NCBI GenBank assembly: GCA_946411635.1 | Contig: CAMKES010000007.1 | Location: 19,075 to 83,074, forward strand | Direction: 5' to 3' | Length of the DNA stretch: 64,000 nucleotides | Source of the DNA: an uncultured Clostridia bacterium | GTDB lineage: Bacteria > Bacillota > Clostridia > Christensenellales > CAG-138 | Part shown: piece after piece, positions 6,106 through 16,854 of the stretch | How positions within the stretch are numbered: position 1 is the first letter of the stretch | How the letters are laid out: every line of letters starts with the position of its first letter | Program-made: the position numbers and the translations under genes | Notes under the pieces: model-generated | Database searches by the model: none | Seen by the model: the letters and a program-made list of their open reading frames with translations, nothing else | What the model was told of the DNA's origin: nothing

Positions 6106-8129
6106 TGGGCAGATTCAAGGTCGTCTCCCCGTACGAGCCGCAGGGCGATCAGCCGCAGGCGATCGAAACGCTGGTAAAGAGCATTGAAGCGGGCAATCCG
6201 CTGTCGGTGCTTCTGGGCGTTACGGGAAGCGGAAAAACCTATACCATGGCGAAGGTCATCGAGCGTGTGCAGAAGCCCACGCTCGTGCTTGCGCACAACA
6301 AAACGCTCGCCGCGCAGCTCTGCTCCGAGTTCAAGGAGCTGTTTCCCGACTCCGCGGTCGAGTTTTTCGTGTCGTACTACGACTATTATCAGCCGGAAGC
6401 GTACCTGCCCGCGAGCGACACCTATATCGAAAAGACGATCGACGTGAACGACGAGATCGACAAGCTCCGCCACTCCGCGACCTGCGCGCTGAACGAGCGC
6501 AGCGACGTCATCATCGTCGCGTCGGTGTCGTGCATCTACGGGCTCGGCGATCCCGAGGAATATCTGAAGCTGTCGATCTCGCTCCGCGAGGGCATGGAGA
6601 TCGACCGCCGCACGGTCATGCAGCGGCTGATCGAGAACCAGTATCAGCGAAACGATATGGACTTTTCGCGCGGGACGTTCCGCGCGCACGGCGACACGCT
6701 CGACGTGTACCCCGTGAACTGGACGGACAAGGCGCTGCGCATCGGCTTTTTCGGCGACGAGATCGAGCGCATTTCGGAGATCAACGTTCTGACCGGCGAG
6801 ATCACGGCGCGCAGGAGCCACGTTGCGATCTTCCCCGCCTCGCACTACGCGACGGGGCACGAAAAGATGCAGCAGGCGCTGCGGGAGATCGAAGCGGACA
6901 TGGAAGTGCAGGAAAAGATGTTCCTCGACACGAACCGGCCGCTGGAGGCCGAGCGCATCCGTTCGCGCGTGCTGCACGACATTGAAATGATGCAGGAGAT
7001 CGGCTTCTGCAGCGGCATCGAAAACTACTCGCGCTACTTCGACGGCAGAAAGCCGGGCGAGCCGCCGTACACGCTGATCGATTATTTCCCGGACGATTTT
7101 CTGATGTTCGTCGACGAAAGCCACGTCACGCTGCCGCAGGTCGGCGGCATGTTCCGCGGCGACCGCGCAAGGAAGGACGCGCTCGTGGAATACGGCTTCC
7201 GTCTGCCGAGCGCGCGGGACAACCGGCCGCTGACGTTCGACGAATTCATGGCGCGCGTGCCGCAGCTCGTCTGCGTGTCCGCAACGCCCGCGAGCTTCGA
7301 GCTGAACCGCGCGTCGGTCGTGGCCGAGCAGATCATCCGCCCGACGGGACTGGTCGATCCGGACGTGACGGTGCGCCCCGTAAAGGGACAGATCGACGAC
7401 ATCCTTTCCGAGGTCCGCATGCAGGCGGAAAAGGGATACCGGACGCTGATCACCACGCTCACGAAGCGCATGGCGGAGGACCTTACGGAATACCTCGACC
7501 GCATGGGCGTGCGCGTGCGCTACATGCACAGCGACATCGACACGCTCGACCGCATGGAGATCGTGCGCGATCTGCGCCTCGGCGAGTTCGACGCGCTCGT
7601 GGGCATCAATCTGCTGCGCGAGGGGCTCGATCTGCCCGAGGTGGGGCTCGTCGCGATCCTCGACGCCGACAAGGAGGGCTTTTTGCGCAGCGAAACGAGC
7701 CTGATCCAGACGATCGGCCGCGCCGCGCGAAACGCCGACGGCCGCGTCATCCTCTATGCCGACACGGTCACGCCCTCGATGCGCCGCGCAATGGACGAAA
7801 CGGCGCGCCGCAGGGCGAAGCAGCTTCAGTACAACGCGGAGCACGGCATCGTGCCGAAGACGATCCAGAAGAAGGTCTACGATACGCTGCTCATCTCGCG
7901 GCGCGAAGAGGACGCGCCGGAAAGCCTCACCGAATGGCAGAAGAAGGAGCGCATCGCCGTGCTCACCGAGCAGATGCAGCAGGCGGCGCGCGAGCTGGAG
8001 TTTGAAACCGCGGCAAAGCTCCGCGACGCGATCCTGGCGCTGAAGGGCGAAAAGACGCAGAAAAAGAGCGATCTGAAGCCCGGACAGATCGGCGCGCACA
8101 AGCGCGCACGGGAAAAGACGCACAAGTAA
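6105..8129 (+). CDS. uvrB: Excinuclease ABC subunit UvrB
   Basis: [80 protein letters not shown]-terminal UVR motif; ATG overlaps the upstream stop. Confidence 0.98.
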
Positions 8130-8131
8130 GC

Positions 8132-9025
8132 ATGGAACAGAAGCCGAAACCGACAATCGAAGAACTGCGCGCGGTTCTGAACGCGCTCGGAAGAGCGGAC
8201 GCGGATACCGCGCGGATCACCGCGTTCACCTCGGAAGAGGACGGCGCGGAATACGCCGTGTGGCGGATCGACGGCGATGAAACGGCCGTGCTGAAGCGCG
8301 CCAAGGCGTTTGAGATCGCGTGCTACGAAACGTATTTCCGCGACGGAACGCCGTACGTGCCCGCGCTTTTGGGGACCTGCCGGACCGGAGACGGCGACTG
8401 GCTTCTCACCGAATACTGCGAGGGGCGTGATCTTCGCCGCTGCGACCGGCCGCGGCTCGTAAAAGCGATCGACGCGCTCGCGGGGCTTCAGAACGCGTTC
8501 TGGCAGCGCGCGGATCTGTATGATTCCTGCATCACGATGGAACGCGCCGAAAAGGCGGTCAAGGACCGCGGAACGTATCTCGGCTCGGAAAAGCTGGAAC
8601 GCGCGTACGCGGCGTTCGAGCGCGTCTACCGGGAAACGCCGCGGACGCTTTCCCACGAGGATCTGCTGCCGATCAACGTGCTTGCGAACGAAGACCGCGC
8701 GGTACTGATCGACTGGGAACACGCCGGCATCCTGCCGTACGCCGGTCCGTTCGCGCGGCTGATCGCGCACGGACGCGAGGACGAAGACGCGTTCTTTTAT
8801 CTGACGGAGGCGGACCGCGATTTTGCGATCGGGTATTATTACGAGCGGCTGCCGCAGATGCACGGGATCTCCTATGCGGACTACCGGCGCACGCTCGATC
8901 ATTTTCTGTTTTACGAATACTGCGAATGGATCATGCTCGGCAACCGTTACGACGCGCGCGGCGACGAGCGGTTCGGGTACTGCAGCAAGCTTGCGGACCG
9001 GACGGCGGACCGCCTGCTGCAGTAA
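8132..9025 (+). CDS. Aminoglycoside/choline-kinase-like phosphotransferase (APH fold)
   Basis: TLSHEDLLPINVLANEDRAVLIDWEHAGILPYAGPFARLIAH resembles the Brenner/DFG-like motifs of the APH family. Confidence 0.7.
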   Translation: MEQKPKPTIEELRAVLNALGRADADTARITAFTSEEDGAEYAVWRIDGDETAVLKRAKAFEIACYETYFRDGTPYVPALLGTCRTGDGDWLLTEYCEGRDLRRCDRPRLVKAIDALAGLQNAFWQRADLYDSCITMERAEKAVKDRGTYLGSEKLERAYAAFERVYRETPRTLSHEDLLPINVLANEDRAVLIDWEHAGILPYAGPFARLIAHGREDEDAFFYLTEADRDFAIGYYYERLPQMHGISYADYRRTLDHFLFYEYCEWIMLGNRYDARGDERFGYCSKLADRTADRLLQ

Positions 9026-9054
9026 AACGAAAAAAAGAAAAAGCGGCGGAAAGC

Positions 9055-9099
9055 GCTATTCTGAAAAGGGTGGTTTTCAAACCACTACTACAGAATAGC
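9055..9099. repeat. Nested inverted repeat at left edge of the low-GC island
   Basis: GCTATTCTG(9055-9063)...CAGAATAGC(9091-9099) enclosing GTGGTTT-TC-AAACCAC (9070-9085). Confidence 0.75.
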
Positions 9100-9132
9100 T
9101 GCGAGAGAGCCTTCCTGCGGTAAAAGAAGCAT

Positions 9133-9177
9133 ATTGCGGCTATTCGGAAAGGAGTAAATCCCGCGGATAGCCGCAAT
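9133..9177. repeat. Inverted repeat / leader hairpin upstream of tnpV
   Basis: ATTGCGGCTAT (9133-9143) pairs perfectly with ATAGCCGCAAT (9167-9177). Confidence 0.75.
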
Positions 9178-9202
9178 TTCATTTTATCACAGGAGGTTAC
9201 AC

Positions 9203-9574
9203 ATGAAAAGCTATTTTGAAGAACGTGGCGGTTCGTATTCTCAAATCGGTGATTATCAAATTCCGAATCTTGTCATGGACGATCAGCCGGAAGGCGACAT
9301 CGGCGTATGGGGCTGGCGCAGAAAACAGTATCTCAAAGAGCATCGAAAAGGCACTTACAATGCAATGCTCATGCAGGGAACACTGACACAGCACCTGATC
9401 GAAACAAACGAGGCAGCACTTGACCTTATGGAATCTCTCGTCAAACAAAGAGCAGCAGCCGAAGGTGTGACGGAAGAATTGAAGCGGAAAGACCAAATGG
9501 CATGGGTCGGGAGAATGAATAACATTCGGAATCGAGCCGACGAGATTGTACGGAACGAATATATTTATGTATGA
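9203..9574 (+). CDS. TnpV-like transposon-encoded protein
   Basis: MKSYFEERGGSYSQIGDYQIPNLVMDD...YLKEHRKGTYN...AAAEGVTEELKRKDQMAWVGRMNNIRNRADEIV, characteristic of TnpV. Confidence 0.85.
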   Translation: MKSYFEERGGSYSQIGDYQIPNLVMDDQPEGDIGVWGWRRKQYLKEHRKGTYNAMLMQGTLTQHLIETNEAALDLMESLVKQRAAAEGVTEELKRKDQMAWVGRMNNIRNRADEIVRNEYIYV

Positions 9575-9645
9575 TCGAGAATGGTTTTCTCAATACCGTC
9601 AGCACGAAGAAATGGTGGTCAAGTTGGCCACCATTTTTTTTGCGT

Positions 9646-10647
9646 TTATTCGACTATATGATTACTGCGCCTATACTTGCTGTCTTTGCTTTTACCTTCT
9701 ATGATATTTTCATAATCAATCACTGCCTTCTCCTTTTCAAATCCCAAATCCTCGTCCGCCCATTTCTCGTATGCCTTGCCGATCCTTTGTATCCGCTTAT
9801 AGACGGCGCTGTGCGTTTTCAGCCCCACGAGATCAGCAACCTCTTGCATTGGCTTTCCCATGTTCCGTAAGAGCAGAATCTTCTGATCGGTTTCCGAAAG
9901 CGACAGGAAGAATGCTTTGCCGTCAATCCGCGCGATAGCGTCCTCCTCCATATCGTCCTCGGTTTCCATCTGCATCAGGCGGTGGTGGATTTTGGAGTTC
10001 TCTGACCTTCGTATCACGTCCAAAGATACCGTCGGATGCTTTGTCTGCCGGTGATACCATTGCCGCTGAAAGTTCAGAAGTCGTCGATTGAAAAACCGTT
10101 CCTCATCGAAATCTTCCTCGCACGGCATTTCATTGCACACGTCGATCACCGCTCCGCGATGCTCCATACCGAACACATCTCCCGCAACGGAATCGACCAT
10201 ATCCATCGCATCATCCAACGAGGGGAAACCGATCTGCTGTTCGGACAAGGGCTTTGCGTACAGATCGTGATTTGTCCATAAGATCCATCGACGCTGCATC
10301 TGTTTGGTCCATAACGGCGTTTCATGCGCTATAACCCATTGCGGCGCATTGCGGGAATAATATTCCATCCAGCCGGACATCTGCATAGCGTTCCAGATCA
10401 GATATGCATAGCCGTCGATAACCGTTTCGAGAAACTTATCGCTTTCGACCAGTGCAAGACTGTTCGGATCAAGCAGCAGCTCGGAGGGACAGCGCGGAAG
10501 CATTTGCAGATTCTCCTCGGCATTGACCATGATTTCTGCGGGCAGCGCATAGAACGCGGGAATCCACTCGCTGTTTTTTACAACTCTGTAAGACCCATCC
10601 TCCTCCGGGATCAAAATCTGATCATTGTAAGCCACATAGATTTTCAT
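9646..10647 (-). CDS. HTH / sigma-70 region 4-like protein within the mobile element
   Basis: C-terminal LSLSETDQKILLLRNMGKPMQEVADLVGLKTHSAVYKRIQRIG is HTH-like; N-terminal part unassigned. Confidence 0.6.
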   Translation of the reverse strand: MKIYVAYNDQILIPEEDGSYRVVKNSEWIPAFYALPAEIMVNAEENLQMLPRCPSELLLDPNSLALVESDKFLETVIDGYAYLIWNAMQMSGWMEYYSRNAPQWVIAHETPLWTKQMQRRWILWTNHDLYAKPLSEQQIGFPSLDDAMDMVDSVAGDVFGMEHRGAVIDVCNEMPCEEDFDEERFFNRRLLNFQRQWYHRQTKHPTVSLDVIRRSENSKIHHRLMQMETEDDMEEDAIARIDGKAFFLSLSETDQKILLLRNMGKPMQEVADLVGLKTHSAVYKRIQRIGKAYEKWADEDLGFEKEKAVIDYENIIEGKSKDSKYRRSNHIVE

Positions 10648-10876
10648 GTTCCATCACCTCCCAACAGCTGCTTTCCGATTCTTCAAACCCATTCTACCGA
10701 AATAAACATCCCATAAACCGGACAGAATCCATTGCGGAAGAAAATATATTATTTTAACAGGAACAATTCGGGGGTAGAAATTGCTTTTATAGGTGAAAGG
10801 AGCGCTTTTTTGTGAACCGATTTGAAGGGAGGCATATCGACTTATGAATACTGCGCCCACTTTTTGACGCAACTGC

Positions 10877-11115
10877 GGTGCCCCGTTGGAGCACCGTGAT
10901 CGGCGAGTTCATCGGCCGTTTTCATAATATGATAACTGCTCCCACCCTTTTATTCGAGAGAGAGCGTTTGGAGTACCTTTACAGAACTTCCCGACAAGTT
11001 GGCGGGAAGTTCATCTGATTGAAAATGAATCCCAACTTGAGATGAATTTTCAGCATGGCAACTTGTGTCCAACTTGAACACAAGTTCGGATCATAAAACT
11101 GTCCTCACTTTTGAG
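10877..11115. repeat. Upstream hairpin cluster (about 5 members)
   Basis: CGGTGCcCC-GTT-GGaGCACCG; GAACTTCCCG..CGGGAAGTTC; GAAAATgaATC..GATgaATTTTC; AACTTGTGTcCAACTTGaACACAAGTT; CCTCA-CTTT-TGAGG. Confidence 0.75.
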
Positions 11116-11125
11116 GTTCAGCATA

Positions 11126-11466
11126 TTCGCACCGCCGCAGCGGGAAGATCACAGAAAGAAAAACAAATAGAACGGCATTCTTCGGTCAGCTTTCGGGCTG
11201 GCTTTTCTTTTACCGTTCGGAAAGGAGCATCAATATCGCACCGTCTGCGGGCGGGAAAGGAACAGTATTGATCAGTCAGACGCAGCCGTAGTGGAATGGT
11301 GGCGAGCGTTTGTCCGCGTATCGCACCGCTTATAACTTGTCGTCCACTGGGCGATAGGTGCAACGGGAACGGAATCATCATGGAAATAAAAACGCAAGGA
11401 GGACACCCTATAGACCCATGAAACACAACCGGCGTTGCCGCGCTTGCGGCAAATCGTATCGCACCG
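11126..11466. repeat. Dispersed short direct repeat TATCGCACCG, about 4 copies upstream of tnpW/recombinase
   Basis: TTCGCACCG (from 11126), TATCGCACCG at 11234, 11319 and 11457; two copies extend to CGTATCGCACCGCTT. Confidence 0.5.
11185..11212 (+). terminator. Rho-independent terminator-like hairpin
   Basis: GTCAGC-TTTCGG-GCTGGC followed by TTTTCTTTT. Confidence 0.5.
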
Positions 11467-11608
11467 CTTGTCGGGAAGTGAACACAAACGACCAAATTAT
11501 TATTTTCAGAAAAGAGGATTACAAACATGATAGACCATCTATCCAACAGCATCGTTGCACTGCACACATTCAACGGACTCTTGAAGAAAGGAGGACTGCG
11601 CCGACCGT

Positions 11609-11800
11609 ATGTACATCACACAACGTATTGGAAACACGGTGTACCGCGTCAAGGTCACGGTAAGCGAAAGCGGTACGCAAACTTTAGAGGATATTTTGCT
11701 GCGGCTGATCCGCAATGATACCCTTGCAAACAGCGGCGAATGTGGTATAATAGCGTTACCGCAGGAAGGTTATCCGCAGCTCGAAAGGATACCTTCATGA
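11609..11800 (+). CDS. TnpW-like transposon-encoded protein
   Basis: MYITQRIGNTVYRVKVTVSESGTQTLEDILLRLIRNDTLANSGECGII resembles the TnpW pattern; stop overlaps the recombinase ATG (ATGA). Confidence 0.75.
   Translation: MYITQRIGNTVYRVKVTVSESGTQTLEDILLRLIRNDTLANSGECGIIALPQEGYPQLERIPS
11724..11751 (+). promoter_or_regulatory. Predicted promoter upstream of serine recombinase (inside tnpW)
   Basis: TTGCAA-N16-TATAAT with TGTGG immediately upstream of the -10. Confidence 0.6.
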
Positions 11801-13602
11801 AGCAACCTATAATTACAAATCAGATCACCGCTCTATATGAGCGTCTTTCCCGCGACGACGAGGTCGCCGGTGACAGCGTTTCGATCCAGACGCAAAAGCA
11901 GATTCTTCGGGACTATGCACAGCAGCATGGTTTCTATAACTGTGTGGACTATACGGATGACGGTTTCTCCGGCGGCAATTTCAATCGCCCTGCTTGGGAA
12001 CGGATGATTGCCGATATCGAAGCCGGAAAGATTTCTGCCGTCATTGTCAAGGATATGTCCCGTGTCGGGAGAAACTACCTGCAGACCGGGTATTATACCG
12101 AGGTCTATTTCCCGCAAAATCATGTACGTTTCATAGCCATTGCGAACAATGTAGACAGCGCCGATCAGCAAAGCAGCGAGTTTGCACCGTTCTTGAATAT
12201 CATGAACGAATGGTATCTGCGAGATATGAGCCGAAAGCAGAAGCAGGCGTATAAAGCACGCGGCAAAGCCGGGAAGCGATATGCAACGATTCCCTGCTAC
12301 GGCTATCGTAAAGACCCGGAGAACAAATACAAATGGATCGTGGACGAAGAAGCTGCAGATGTCGTCAGAATGATTTTCTCGTGGGCTGCGCAAGGGATCG
12401 GCGTTGTAGAGATTGCTCGCCGCTTGTCCAAGCAGCAGATTGAGAAGCCGTCCTACTATATGTCGACGCATGGAATATGGAAATGCGGCGATCCGTGGAT
12501 CAATGAACGTCCGTATGATTGGAACTGCCGAACCGTTGGGGATATTCTTGCAAAGCAGGAATATCTCGGTCATACGATCAATGCAAGGTTCTCGGTGGAA
12601 TCGTACAAAACGCACAGAACGGTTCGCAACGATCCTTCCGAGTGGCAGATCATTGAGAATACACACGAAGCGATCATTGATCAAAAGACGTTTGAAACGG
12701 TACAGAAAGCCAGGAACGTCAAGCGGAGAACCGATACGCTCGGAAAAGCAAACCCACTGACGGGTCTTGTGTTCTGCGCCGATTGCGGAAGACGGATGTA
12801 CAATCACCGCTGCGGATCGAAAGCACGGAAGAAGAATGCAGTACCGGACCCAATCACCGGACTGTTCCCGATGGACTTCTATGCCTGCTCCACCTATTCG
12901 CTGACAAAGAATCGCTCGGATCGGACCTGTACACAGCACCAAATCATGACGAAAACAATCCGGTCGCTGATTCTGAACACAATCCGTACAACGGTACAGT
13001 TTGCGCTGTTTGACAAGGATCGATTCTTACAGCGGGTACGCGAAGATTCTCTGATTCGGGATCGGACGCAGGCGAAGGAATTGCAGAAGAAGATCGCTAA
13101 GGAAGAAAAACGTATTGCCGAGCTGGATCGGCTGATCATGAAACTGTATGAGGACTATGCGCTCGATCGGCTTCCGTTTGACCGGTATCGGCAGATGACG
13201 GAGCAGTATGAAGCGGAGCAGAAAGTGCTGAAGGCGTCGCTTTCGGAAGATCAGTCGAAGGTCGATTCCTATACCGACGACACCGACCGTGCCGAACGGT
13301 TCCTTGCCATTGCCGAACAATACACGGATTTCACCGTCTTGACAGATGATATGATTCTTGCATTTGTGGACAAGATCCTTGTGCACGCGCCGGAGAAGAT
13401 CGACGGGCAGCGGATACAGGATGTGGAGATCTATCTGAATCACATCGGCAAGATCGACCTTCCGACGGATGTGATCGCAATCGGTGCGAAGGAAGCAGAC
13501 AAGGAAGCCGAGCTGCAAAAGAAGCGGGAATACCATCGCCGGTATTACCGTACAAAAGTCAAACCGAAGAAAGAAGCGCAAAAAGTGACGAACGCGGGAT
13601 AA
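11797..13602 (+). CDS. Large serine recombinase (TnpX-like, recombinase + zinc-ribbon + DUF4368-like C-terminus)
   Basis: ALYERLSRDDEVAGDSVSIQTQKQILRDYA...DDGFSGGNFNRPAWERMIADIEAGKISAVIVKDMSRVGRNYLQTGYYTEV...GLVFCADCGRRMYNHRCGS. Confidence 0.95.
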   Translation: MKQPIITNQITALYERLSRDDEVAGDSVSIQTQKQILRDYAQQHGFYNCVDYTDDGFSGGNFNRPAWERMIADIEAGKISAVIVKDMSRVGRNYLQTGYYTEVYFPQNHVRFIAIANNVDSADQQSSEFAPFLNIMNEWYLRDMSRKQKQAYKARGKAGKRYATIPCYGYRKDPENKYKWIVDEEAADVVRMIFSWAAQGIGVVEIARRLSKQQIEKPSYYMSTHGIWKCGDPWINERPYDWNCRTVGDILAKQEYLGHTINARFSVESYKTHRTVRNDPSEWQIIENTHEAIIDQKTFETVQKARNVKRRTDTLGKANPLTGLVFCADCGRRMYNHRCGSKARKKNAVPDPITGLFPMDFYACSTYSLTKNRSDRTCTQHQIMTKTIRSLILNTIRTTVQFALFDKDRFLQRVREDSLIRDRTQAKELQKKIAKEEKRIAELDRLIMKLYEDYALDRLPFDRYRQMTEQYEAEQKVLKASLSEDQSKVDSYTDDTDRAERFLAIAEQYTDFTVLTDDMILAFVDKILVHAPEKIDGQRIQDVEIYLNHIGKIDLPTDVIAIGAKEADKEAELQKKREYHRRYYRTKVKPKKEAQKVTNAG

Positions 13603-13684
13603 CGGGATATGCAGAAACACCCATTTGCCATTGTTCCCTCCTAAAAACAATACATTTCAACCGCATATCGTTATCCGCATCTTA

Positions 13685-14494
13685 ATTTCGTCCCATCTTG
13701 GGACGAAGTGACAAAGCAGCAAACGCGTCGCAGGGTTCACCCCTTGCGACGCGTTTGAACGCTTACTGTCCGCTAATAAAGTCAGAATTTCTCGGTGTTT
13801 TCAACTTCGTCTCCACTGGAGACGAAGTGAAACCATGGCGTATGCAACGGCTTACGACGACTATGATTATGTGCTTCTTGTACATCATTATTTTGTCTCC
13901 ACTGGAGTCATATTTCCCTTGCAACTGCATATTTCGCACCGGTGTACAAAGCTCCGAGAAAATTATTCCCCACTGGGGAACAATTTTCACTTCGGCCCCA
14001 GCGGGGCCGATGTTCGCTTTTAACTTCTGCCCCAGTGGGACAGAAGTCGGGCGTTCGGAAACTTCCCGCCCATTGGCGCGGAAGTCGATATTTGTCTCCG
14101 GTGGAGGCAGATTGTCACTTCGGTCCCGCCGTGCCAAAGTCGAAGCGATCACAGAAATGGTGCCCCAGTGGGACACCATTTTCTCCGTAATTGATTATTG
14201 CGCTCGCAGTTCGCGTTGTCGTAACTTCTGTGCCACCGGCACACAAGTTAACAATGCGGCCCCGGTGAGGTCGAATAAATGAGTCGCCACCGGCGCCGCG
14301 TTTCTCCACAACAGAAAAACAGTATACAGGGCTTTCTTACAGCTGGTTCGCAAATATGCGGATCGGCTGTTTCTTTACCCTGCTTTTAACTTCGTGCCAA
14401 CTTGGCGCGAAGTTAAGACCGCATCACAATTTCTGCCCAACTTGGGCAGAAGTTGCCTGACGTGGAAATTGTGATCCATTTGATCACAATTTCC
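13685..14494. repeat. Array of about 17 sequence-diverse short hairpins with shared architecture
   Basis: Examples: TTCGTCCCA-TCT-TGGGACGAA (13687-13707); ACTTCGTCTCCA-C-TGGAGACGAAGT (13804-13828); GAAAATTaTTCCCCA-C-TGGGGAAcAATTTTC (13958-13988); ACTTCGGCCCCAGCGGGGCCGAtGT (13989-14013); ACTTCTGcCCCA-G-TGGGaCAGAAGT (14023-14047); AAATGGTGcCCCA-G-TGGGaCACCATTT (14155-14181); TTAACTTCGTGCCAA-C-TTGGCGCGAAGTTAA (14386-14416); CAATTTCTGCCCAA-C-TTGGGCAGAAGTTG (14427-14455); GGAAATTGTGATC-CATTT-GATCACAATTTCC (14464-14494). Confidence 0.92.
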
Positions 14495-14626
14495 TATGGT
14501 GCCAAATCGAGCGAAATCCGGTGCCTTTTCCATTCTGCCCGGAAAAGCACGGTGCCGGAACGGTGCCATCCGGCAAAACAGATATTATAGCTGAAATCAC
14601 AATGGTTTTAGCAGAAAGGAGCTTTT

Positions 14627-14821
14627 ATGAACGAAACAGAACGTATCCAAGCACAGCATAGATTGGAGGAGACGCAGGCGCGGGATCGGGTCAAAGAACG
14701 CAAGGCACGAACCAGACGATTGATTCAGATCGGCGCGATTGCAGAGAGCGTGTTCCCAAAAATCAAGGACATGGAGCTTGAGGATGCGAAGCGTTACATG
14801 GAACAGATCCGAGACCGTTAG
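14627..14821 (+). CDS. Small mobilization-accessory protein, DUF3847-like
   Basis: Positively charged coiled-coil start, then IGAIAESVFPKIKDMELEDAKRYMEQI; SD AAAGGAG upstream; sits before the relaxase. Confidence 0.6.
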   Translation: MNETERIQAQHRLEETQARDRVKERKARTRRLIQIGAIAESVFPKIKDMELEDAKRYMEQIRDR

Positions 14822-14837
14822 GGGATCGGAATCGGAG

Positions 14838-14872
14838 GAAGCAGCCGTCCGCGACTGCTTCTTCTTTTTTAT
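14838..14872 (+). terminator. Rho-independent terminator
   Basis: GAAGCAG...CTGCTTC followed by TTCTTTTTTATTTTTT. Confidence 0.75.
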
Positions 14873-14894
14873 TTTTTCCGAAGGGCGCACTTAC

Positions 14895-15100
14895 TCACCA
14901 CTTGCCCGCAGGGCAAGCGGTGGTAACCCGCCCGTTGGTCGGGTCGTGCGCTCCTCCCGAAAGCGTTGCTTTCTCCGGAGGGGCAGATAATGCCGCAAGC
15001 CGTCATTGCCTGAGCAGCGGCGAATTGTCGTGCAATTCTCGCTGCATGAAACCCTGCACCGCAGGATTTCGGGTGCGCGGTGGAAACGGCGCGCCGTTTC
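14895..15100. repeat. Hairpin cluster upstream of relaxase (about 6 members), candidate oriT region
   Basis: CACCaCTTGCCC-GCA-GGGCAAGcGGTG; ACCCGcCC-GTT-GGtCGGGT; CCTCC..GAAAGC-GTT-GCTTTC..GGAGG; GCAGCG..GAATTG..CAATTC..CGCTGC; GAAAcCCTGC-ACC-GCAGGaTTTC; GAAACGGCGCGCCGTTTC. Confidence 0.75.
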
Positions 15101-15128
15101 AAAGAATCATTGAAAGGAGTTTTATCAC

Positions 15129-16826
15129 ATGGCAATTTACCATTTGGAAGCCAAGATTATCAGCCGAGGTACAGGACGCTCGGCAGTCGCCGCCGCAGCG
15201 TATATGGGCTGCGATATAATCACAAACGAATACGACGGGATCACCCACGACTATACCCGTAAGGGTGGTCTTGTATGGGAACATATCTTCCTTCCCGCGC
15301 AAGCTCCGCCGGAGTGGTCTGATCGCGAAACACTATGGAATGCCGTGGAACGGGCGGAGAAAACGAAGGACAGCCGCCTTGCAAGGGAGATGATCGTAGC
15401 TCTTCCTCTGGAAATACCTGCCGAGGAATGGAAAAGCATCTTGACCGAGTTTATCACGGAGCAATTCGTTTCCGATGGTATGTGTGCCGACGTCGCCATC
15501 CACGATACCGACGGTCACAATCCTCATGCACATATCCTGCTGACCGTTCGACCTCTCAATCAGGACGGAACATGGCAATACAAAACGCAGAAAGAATACC
15601 TGTGCGTTCGGAACGGTGAGGAGAGCGGCTTTACGGCACAGGAATTCTTACAGGCAAAGCGTGACGGTTGGGAGAAGCAGTATCCATATATGAAGGATGG
15701 CAAGAAAGTGTTTCTGCCGCCGAGCAAAGCGACAGGTTTGGAGCGCTTGTCCAAACAGCCGAAAAGCACAACATACGGACGGCAAAACCCGATCACCGCA
15801 CGGTGGAACAGCAAGGAACAGCTGGAAGCATGGCGCTCGGAATGGGCTAATACAGTCAACCTTCATTTAGAGAAATCACGGCAGCCGGAACGGATCGACC
15901 ACCGCAGCTTTGCCGATCAGGGGATTGATCTGAAGCCGACGATTCATGAGGGCGTGACAGCCCGTGTACTGGAGAGCAAAGGCATAGTCTCCGACCGTTG
16001 CGAGCTAAATCGGCAAATCAAAGCAGACAACGCCCTAATCCGGAAGCTGAAAGAGTTGTTGTCGGTCGTAAAGGACGTCATACAGGTCTTTGCGGAAAAG
16101 CTGGAATCCATCCGCGATACGTTGGTCGAATCCTTCTATGGACAGCGGCAGGCGACGGCAGCACACAAGTATTATTGGAATCAATACGCGACCGCCACCG
16201 ATCGGCTGGATCGGTTGGAAACGCTGCTGCCGGAACTGAAAGCAAAGGTGTCGGAGCAAAAGCGTGTTCACAAGGAACTGGAATCTACGGGTAAGATCCA
16301 TTTCAAGAAGCGGAAGGAGCTTGCCGAAAAGGATGCTTTGTTGATCGAGGAGGTCAACGAACTGCAAAGCGAGCGTTCCATGCTCATGCAGAAGCTGAAC
16401 CTGACGGACGAAAAGCAAATCGCCGAAAAACGCGCTTCTGTCCAGCCGTTGGAAACCGAAGCGGATCGACAATACGAACTGTCGCAGGATTTCTTTGTAC
16501 GGCATGAGCAGGCGAAGCAGGATTATGACGTCGTGGAGGAAGAATCTGCGGAACAGAACATAGACCGCAAGGAACTTTGGCAGCGGCAGCAGGCGATCCG
16601 GTTGGAGAACACCCCTTGCCTACACGACCGGCTGAAAGCACAATATGGCAAGGACTTTGACGAAGGCGGGTTCGACAGCGCAGCACGGGAAATGCATTAC
16701 TACACGCAGGCGCGTCACTATGCTTTCTCTGACTACGCGAAGCGGCTGCAGCGTGAAAAATCACGGCAAAACCGAAACGACAATACACAGAAACCGCGTA
16801 GAAGAAACAGCGAGCCGGAACGGTAG
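15129..16826 (+). CDS. MobA/MobL (MobQ-type) relaxase
   Basis: MAIYHLEAKIISRGTGRSAVAAAAYMG...REMIVALPLEIPAEEW...VSDGMCADVAIHDTDGHNPHAHILLTVRP (HxxxxNPHAHIL). Confidence 0.95.
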   Translation: MAIYHLEAKIISRGTGRSAVAAAAYMGCDIITNEYDGITHDYTRKGGLVWEHIFLPAQAPPEWSDRETLWNAVERAEKTKDSRLAREMIVALPLEIPAEEWKSILTEFITEQFVSDGMCADVAIHDTDGHNPHAHILLTVRPLNQDGTWQYKTQKEYLCVRNGEESGFTAQEFLQAKRDGWEKQYPYMKDGKKVFLPPSKATGLERLSKQPKSTTYGRQNPITARWNSKEQLEAWRSEWANTVNLHLEKSRQPERIDHRSFADQGIDLKPTIHEGVTARVLESKGIVSDRCELNRQIKADNALIRKLKELLSVVKDVIQVFAEKLESIRDTLVESFYGQRQATAAHKYYWNQYATATDRLDRLETLLPELKAKVSEQKRVHKELESTGKIHFKKRKELAEKDALLIEEVNELQSERSMLMQKLNLTDEKQIAEKRASVQPLETEADRQYELSQDFFVRHEQAKQDYDVVEEESAEQNIDRKELWQRQQAIRLENTPCLHDRLKAQYGKDFDEGGFDSAAREMHYYTQARHYAFSDYAKRLQREKSRQNRNDNTQKPRRRNSEPER

Positions 16827-16843
16827 TCCCGTTTCGGCTCGCT
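16809..16843 (+). terminator. Stem-loop spanning the relaxase stop codon
   Basis: AGCGAGCCGgAACGG-TAGT-CCGTTtCGGCTCGCT region; TAG stop lies in the loop; no strong T-tract. Confidence 0.45.
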
Positions 16844-16854
16844 TAAATTCATTC

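Follow-up and report, generated by a model that had tools for sequence, protein, structure and literature searches.

A row of parS-like palindromes of many specificities in a clostridial mobilizable element without ParA or ParB: probable mimics of the ParB sites of co-resident elements

In ParABS partition systems the centromere can lie inside a partition gene, as is known for parS in spo0J of Bacillus subtilis. The palindromes described here resemble such centromeres in that they track the recognition helix of ParB, that ParA stands beside ParB in many loci, and that a site is found inside parB. They differ in being odd palindromes of 27 bp, compared with the even 16-bp parS, and in having a hypervariable inner arm that co-evolves with the helix, site and helix apparently being swapped as a cassette. 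The location also varies: single members lie inside parB, whereas the array that is our main subject lies in an element with neither ParA nor ParB. Partition sites that imitate those of another element have been described for SGI1, in which two mimics of the IncC parS bind ParB, stabilise SGI1 and destabilise its helper (PMC10954446). Like SGI1, the element analysed here is an integrative mobilizable element (IME) that has no Par system of its own and carries palindromes resembling the parABS sites of another element. Unlike SGI1, which holds two sites of one specificity directed at one helper family, the arrays of this family hold 13–35 sites of many specificities in one row; they occur in serine-recombinase IMEs of Clostridia and are predicted to bind ParB, as the SGI1 sites have been shown to do. 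Imitation of several specificity subtypes by a hitch-hiker is also found in staphylococcal plasmids that carry oriT mimics of several conjugative-family subtypes, some plasmids with two or three different ones (PMC8136818). Those mimics are read by SmpO and the relaxase, whereas the sites described here are putatively of the ParB type and are far more numerous. A review describes the maintenance of excised mobilizable elements as 'an unexplored world' (PMC5704250).

The window, by which we mean the whole 64-kb stretch of DNA that was analysed, comes from an uncultured Clostridia bacterium of the rumen or gut (contig CAMKES010000007.1) and contains an IME of about 7.8 kb on the forward strand (9052..16844). 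These limits are a minimal extent given by homology, blastn alignments reaching from 9052 with locus L049 and as far as 16844 with locus L047; GC content is 0.45–0.54 in the element and about 0.62 at 8000–9000. The forward strand encodes TnpV (9203..9574; Pfam PF14198, 139.9 bits), a large serine recombinase of the TnpX type (11740..13602; Pfam Resolvase, Recombinase, Zn_ribbon_recom and DUF4368), a small DUF3847-like protein 5' of the relaxase (14627..14821; Pfam PF12958, under the cut-off) and a MobA/MobL relaxase (15129..16826; Pfam PF03389, 297.7 bits). With its recombinase, TnpV and relaxase, and with the conjugation machinery absent, the element resembles the Tn4451/TnpX family; our literature search turned up no account of ParB sites arrayed in elements of this family. 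Recombinase and relaxase are thus present, and ParA and ParB are both absent. The reverse strand carries a 333-aa ORF (9646..10647) with a weak C-terminal helix-turn-helix (HTH) resembling sigma-70 region 4, no Pfam match and a predicted fold of low confidence (mean pLDDT 62). Its homologs, found at 39 loci, belong to mobile elements of Clostridia, mainly from gut and rumen, and two motifs, PCxEDFD and WYHxxTKHP, are conserved. The ORF adjoins most arrays, and in the window array members lie on both sides of it.

The original prediction had placed about 17 short inverted repeats of common architecture between the recombinase and mobilization genes. The array is real and far beyond chance. In the window, 12 or more of the 13 arm pairs form in only ten 27-mers, of which nine are family members, starting at 9610, 10985, 11060, 13803, 13960, 14155, 14388, 14428 and 14466; as a single strand, the array region folds 14.6 s.d. 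below dinucleotide shuffles. The common outer arm and core hold, and can be refined to one exact length of 27 bp (13 + 1 + 13) with a single central base, where pairing ends. The consensus is an odd-centred palindrome, AAnTT…CCAnTGG…AAnTT, with centres mostly CAA/TTG or CCA/TGG, a third base that is nearly always A or C, and inner arms that belong to a vocabulary of recurring types. The count proved somewhat lower: the main array of these putative ParB sites (13684..14492, no strand assigned, as for all members) comprises about 14–16 members, some of them degenerate, and at least five more lie outside it, between 9610 and 11360. The array also encloses an unrelated 38-nt hairpin at 13720–13757, with a 16-bp stem and a 6-nt loop. 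Another, terminator-like hairpin, ACAGCTGGTTCGC...CGGCTGT (14339–14370), is largely kept in L049 and L055. Intrinsic terminators, already set aside in the original prediction, are ruled out, as most members have no T-tract; the array region contains four terminator-like sites against 1.9 ± 1.2 expected.

Members were recognised by their pair counts, by matches to a covariance model of the family and by comparison with L055, a locus of another species. Outside the main array, AAATGGTGGTCAAGTTGGCCACCATTT (9610..9636), on the 3' side of the 333-aa ORF, has 12 of 13 pairs and a model match. Pair count and model match also identify AACTTCCCGACAAGTTGGCGGGAAGTT (10985..11011), which is kept in L049, AAATGAATCCCAACTTGAGATGAATTT (11023..11049) and AACTTGTGTCCAACTTGAACACAAGTT (11060..11086); the degenerate AACTTGTCGTCCACTGGGCGATAGGTG (11334..11360; model match of 26.5 bits) is missing from L049. 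Within the main array, several members share half-sites with palindromes located in ParB genes. The right half-site (positions 3–12) of AATTTCGTCCCATCTTGGGACGAAGTG (13684..13710) is identical to sites in ParB genes encoding TSSQVGTK, and AACTTCGTCTCCACTGGAGACGAAGTG (13803..13829) is of the GTCTC type, as is the ParB site on contig C2 of the same genome, from which it differs at position 12. Half-sites of AAATTATTCCCCACTGGGGAACAATTT (13960..13986), AACTTCTGTGCCACCGGCACACAAGTT (14223..14249) and AACTTCGTGCCAACTTGGCGCGAAGTT (14388..14414) equal those of the ParB sites of L022, of L117, and of L080 and L023, respectively, and the right half-site of AATTTCTGCCCAACTTGGGCAGAAGTT (14428..14454) equals that of the ParB sites of L072 and L176. 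Pair count together with a model match supports AACTTCTGCCCCAGTGGGACAGAAGTC (14022..14048) and AAATTGTGATCCATTTGATCACAATTT (14466..14492), and pair count supports CACTTCGGCCCCAGCGGGGCCGATGTT (13988..14014). The partly decayed TATTTTGTCTCCACTGGAGTCATATTT (13889..13915) is recognised by model match and the L055 comparison, ATATTTGTCTCCGGTGGAGGCAGATTG (14088..14114) by a model match, its L055 ortholog being more symmetric, and AAATGGTGCCCCAGTGGGACACCATTT (14155..14181) has an L055 ortholog with compensatory pair differences. Two members are weak: AACTTCCCGCCCATTGGCGCGGAAGTC (14060..14086), with 9 of 13 pairs and an orthologous site in L055, and AAATGAGTCGCCACCGGCGCCGCGTTT (14277..14303), identified by pair count and the L055 comparison.

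The covariation inside the locus on which the original prediction rested is borne out. Standard pairs occupy 85% of pair cells in 18 members, compared with 62.5 ± 2.2% in shuffles, and 89% against 62% in 107 members from several elements; pairing also exceeds that of slid controls. The covariance model, run against the 2.06-Mb genome of origin, gave only two matches outside the element, one on contig C2 and a weak one on contig C3, and both lie inside the two ParB genes of that genome. The proposed tie to mobile elements therefore holds, and the genome-wide scatter that would mark REP/BIME palindromes, which are ruled out, is not seen. Relatives with model matches number 25 of 60 (26 of 61 genomes when the window's own is counted), and in several of them the array reaches up to 35 members. 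Arrays lie upstream of genes for relaxases of two families, MOBP and MobL, and lone members lie in parB. The window array and the L055 array correspond site by site as orthologs, conservation being 86% in sites and 66% in spacers. Compensatory changes do occur between the two, but one-sided changes are more frequent. Elsewhere, L169 and L172 each contain a cluster of three near-identical member sites, unlike the mixed arrays, the L172 cluster adjoining a relaxase, and L170 (776–972), from another family of the class, has six sites of mixed type in about 200 bp, possibly an independent small array.

The homologs of the 333-aa ORF at the 39 clostridial loci led to array-free elements in which a single member palindrome lies 2.5–4 kb away. 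This lone palindrome is part of a ParB-like gene. Throughout the order and the class it occupies the same codons, which encode DLTS-x-Q-[LVI]-x-x-K and variants. The peptide varies (TSAQVGQK, TCGQVGHK, TSGQVVPK, TSCQVGTK, TSDQLGPK, TLSQVATK, NVRQVGAH, NYSPVGNN and others) while the DNA stays palindromic: the parB-borne sites have 11.8 of 13 pairs compared with 6.7 in synonymous-codon shuffles (z = 31), and all 71 exceed their own shuffled mean. A class-wide model search found a match inside a ParB gene in 20 of 28 fetched loci. ParA adjoins ParB in 46 of 116 ParB loci, and in a Cohnella plasmid parA and parB overlap, with the palindrome within parB. An AlphaFold model of ParB places the encoded peptide (residues 134–141) in a disordered linker with pLDDT below 50 that immediately precedes the HTH; the recognition helix of this HTH spans residues 157–168. 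ParB genes with AAATT-type sites (L026, L038, L053, L106, L120, L121 and L134) encode a GRP motif, AGRPxxEN or a similar sequence, immediately ahead of the site; it might touch the outer arm in the manner of an AT-hook. AACTT-type ParBs have GxRTDLT in its place.

The inner half-site was compared with six residues of the recognition helix in a partial Mantel test that controls for the rest of ParB. The correlation was significant in the order-wide set (r = 0.394, p = 2e-4) and was replicated class-wide in an independent set (r = 0.445, p = 3e-4); with the sets combined (n = 71), r was 0.353, the best of 227 control windows reaching 0.144. Resolved by residue, the coupling concentrates on −5 and −4 of the helix against positions 9 and 10 of the site (z 13–15), and on −1 against position 8 (z 6–7); nearly all remaining pairs score far lower, although linker position −16 also reaches z = 10. 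For example, helices with RNQ-Q go with GTCCC (and other xxCCC), AR-Q with GTGCC, YKT-Q with GGGAC, RD-F/Y with GTCGC, KDT-K with GGWGC and SASQVK with GGACC. In our alignment on S-R-x-x-[VI], residue −5 corresponds to R173 of Caulobacter ParB, which sets parS/NBS specificity (PMC7383237). Site and helix are encoded within one gene, about 20 codons apart, so that linkage inflates the association; yet both the control for the rest of the protein and the distribution over residues speak against linkage as the sole cause. The ParBs of L118 and L121 are 99–100% identical outside the site-to-helix segment and 48% identical within it, and their palindromes differ; a second pair shows 97% and 59%, respectively. 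Site and reader thus appear to be exchanged between ParBs as one cassette. Given this co-evolution and the paired difference between L118 and L121, the palindrome is very probably the ParB's own parS-like site, and many clostridial mobile elements would carry their cognate site within the parB linker codons before the HTH.

When the arrays were compared with these ParB sites, 88 of 131 array half-sites matched a ParB half-site, compared with 60.4 ± 4.9 in shuffles, and exact matches over positions 3–11 numbered 41 of 125, where permutation of the outer and inner blocks gave 30.3 ± 3.3. Array members include 27/27 copies of parB sites, and for one of these, in genome G034, the parB gene concerned belongs to that genome too. 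Eight of 12 co-resident ParB sites are perfectly matched over positions 3–11 by the array of their own genome, and the mean for co-resident sites against their own array is 8.25, compared with 7.26 ± 0.25 shuffled. The window's own genome has two co-resident ParB sites, one so matched and the other without a close match in the array. Class-wide ParB sites, taken as left half-sites, matched arrays no better than column shuffles did (21% vs 54% exact). Mimicry aimed specifically at types that circulate locally is therefore a more limited claim, supported by few cases; some array members match no known ParB site. ParB or ParA was found in none of the array-bearing loci within the fetched stretches. 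Among the 39 loci with the 333-aa ORF, 13 have ParB, eight have an array and none has both (p about 0.025, calculated by hand), several loci having neither.

Taken together, these matches make it probable that the array is a set of parS-like sites of many specificities, which mimics the ParB sites of co-resident elements and recruits foreign ParBs. That the inner arm co-varies with the ParB residues that read DNA suggests protein sites in double-stranded DNA with two-fold symmetry, and each 27-bp palindrome would be bound by a ParB dimer. A homodimer imposes two-fold symmetry on sites of differing specificity, and this accounts for the apparent conservation of a fold, which the original prediction had read from the covariation, so that no RNA or ssDNA fold is needed. 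An element without ParA or ParB would thereby hold, beside its mobilization genes, a collection of sites resembling those of different co-resident elements. By analogy with SGI1 and the IncC ParB, we infer that the window element most likely recruits whichever foreign ParB is present. The excised element could then be partitioned by the ParAB of the other element; alternatively, the array might titrate that element's ParB, and ParB loaded on the array could also signal to the mobilization genes.

The last two of these steps, and not partition, may in fact be what the sites are for, namely to titrate foreign ParBs, causing incompatibility or de-repressing a helper, or to sense a helper and switch the mobilization genes on. 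We hold this tentatively, as a serious possibility; it is compatible with the recruitment of foreign ParBs that we favour, and the two likelihoods are not additive. It is in keeping with the parS sites of SGI1, which both stabilise SGI1 and expel the helper in a dose-dependent manner (PMC10954446), with the position of the arrays directly upstream of mobilization genes of two relaxase families, and with the many ParBs that have no ParA in the fetched stretch.

It is very unlikely that the palindromes act as folded single strands, whether as hairpins in ssDNA during conjugative transfer or replication or as RNA hairpins for an element-encoded binder. The very strong folding (z = −14.6), the strong covariation of pairs and the place of the array just upstream of the mobilization genes would all suit such roles, which the original prediction had put forward. 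However, mismatches in the arrays show little strand bias (G.T 72, A.C 57), and on the sense strand of parB G.T mismatches (15) are fewer than A.C (54), the opposite of what an RNA hairpin would leave. The palindromes are odd-centred with a one-base spacer, they are coupled to the recognition-helix residues of ParB, and Rfam gives no match.

An operator or decoy for one protein, such as the product of the nearby sigma-region-4-like 333-aa ORF, is highly improbable: that ORF is a neighbour of most arrays and in the window has members on either side, but a single binder leaves unexplained both the symmetric variation of the inner arms and the vocabulary shared with ParB sites, and the ORF also occurs in array-free elements with ParB and in several with neither. 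For the 333-aa protein in particular, the operator reading was rejected because the ORF is present in ParB elements lacking arrays. Hardly credible are selfish or mutationally maintained repeats, that is, mobile palindromes or palindromes kept by template-switch correction, with no binder, that landed in parB too. Template-switch correction had been the third role proposed in the original prediction. Such repeats would explain the presence in noncoding arrays and coding DNA alike, the several independent clusters and the many types, but the position in parB is always at the same codons, scatter across the genome is lacking, the palindrome type tracks the recognition helix, and one-sided changes dominate between close relatives, so that correction is not immediate. 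A structured RNA family (no Rfam match, no G.U excess) and oriT hairpins (15–35 diversified copies by two unrelated relaxase families, one copy inside parB) were rejected.

For ParB itself, the parB genes offer a natural data set of about 70 receptor–site pairs in which the site is encoded in the gene of its receptor, and from these pairs a ParB–DNA recognition code could be read and tested directly. For the IMEs of gut and rumen Clostridia, recruitment of foreign ParBs suggests a wider and more speculative picture, which we think somewhat doubtful as a whole: they might carry counterfeit centromeres by the dozen, a bank that evolves and has one for each ParB specificity among their rivals, serving as a universal adaptor or as a weapon against co-resident elements, while the rivals keep changing their swappable ParB site-plus-helix cassette in an arms race over partition specificity. 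If this is true, one element with sites for many ParBs would make hijacking or sabotage general and not specific to a helper.
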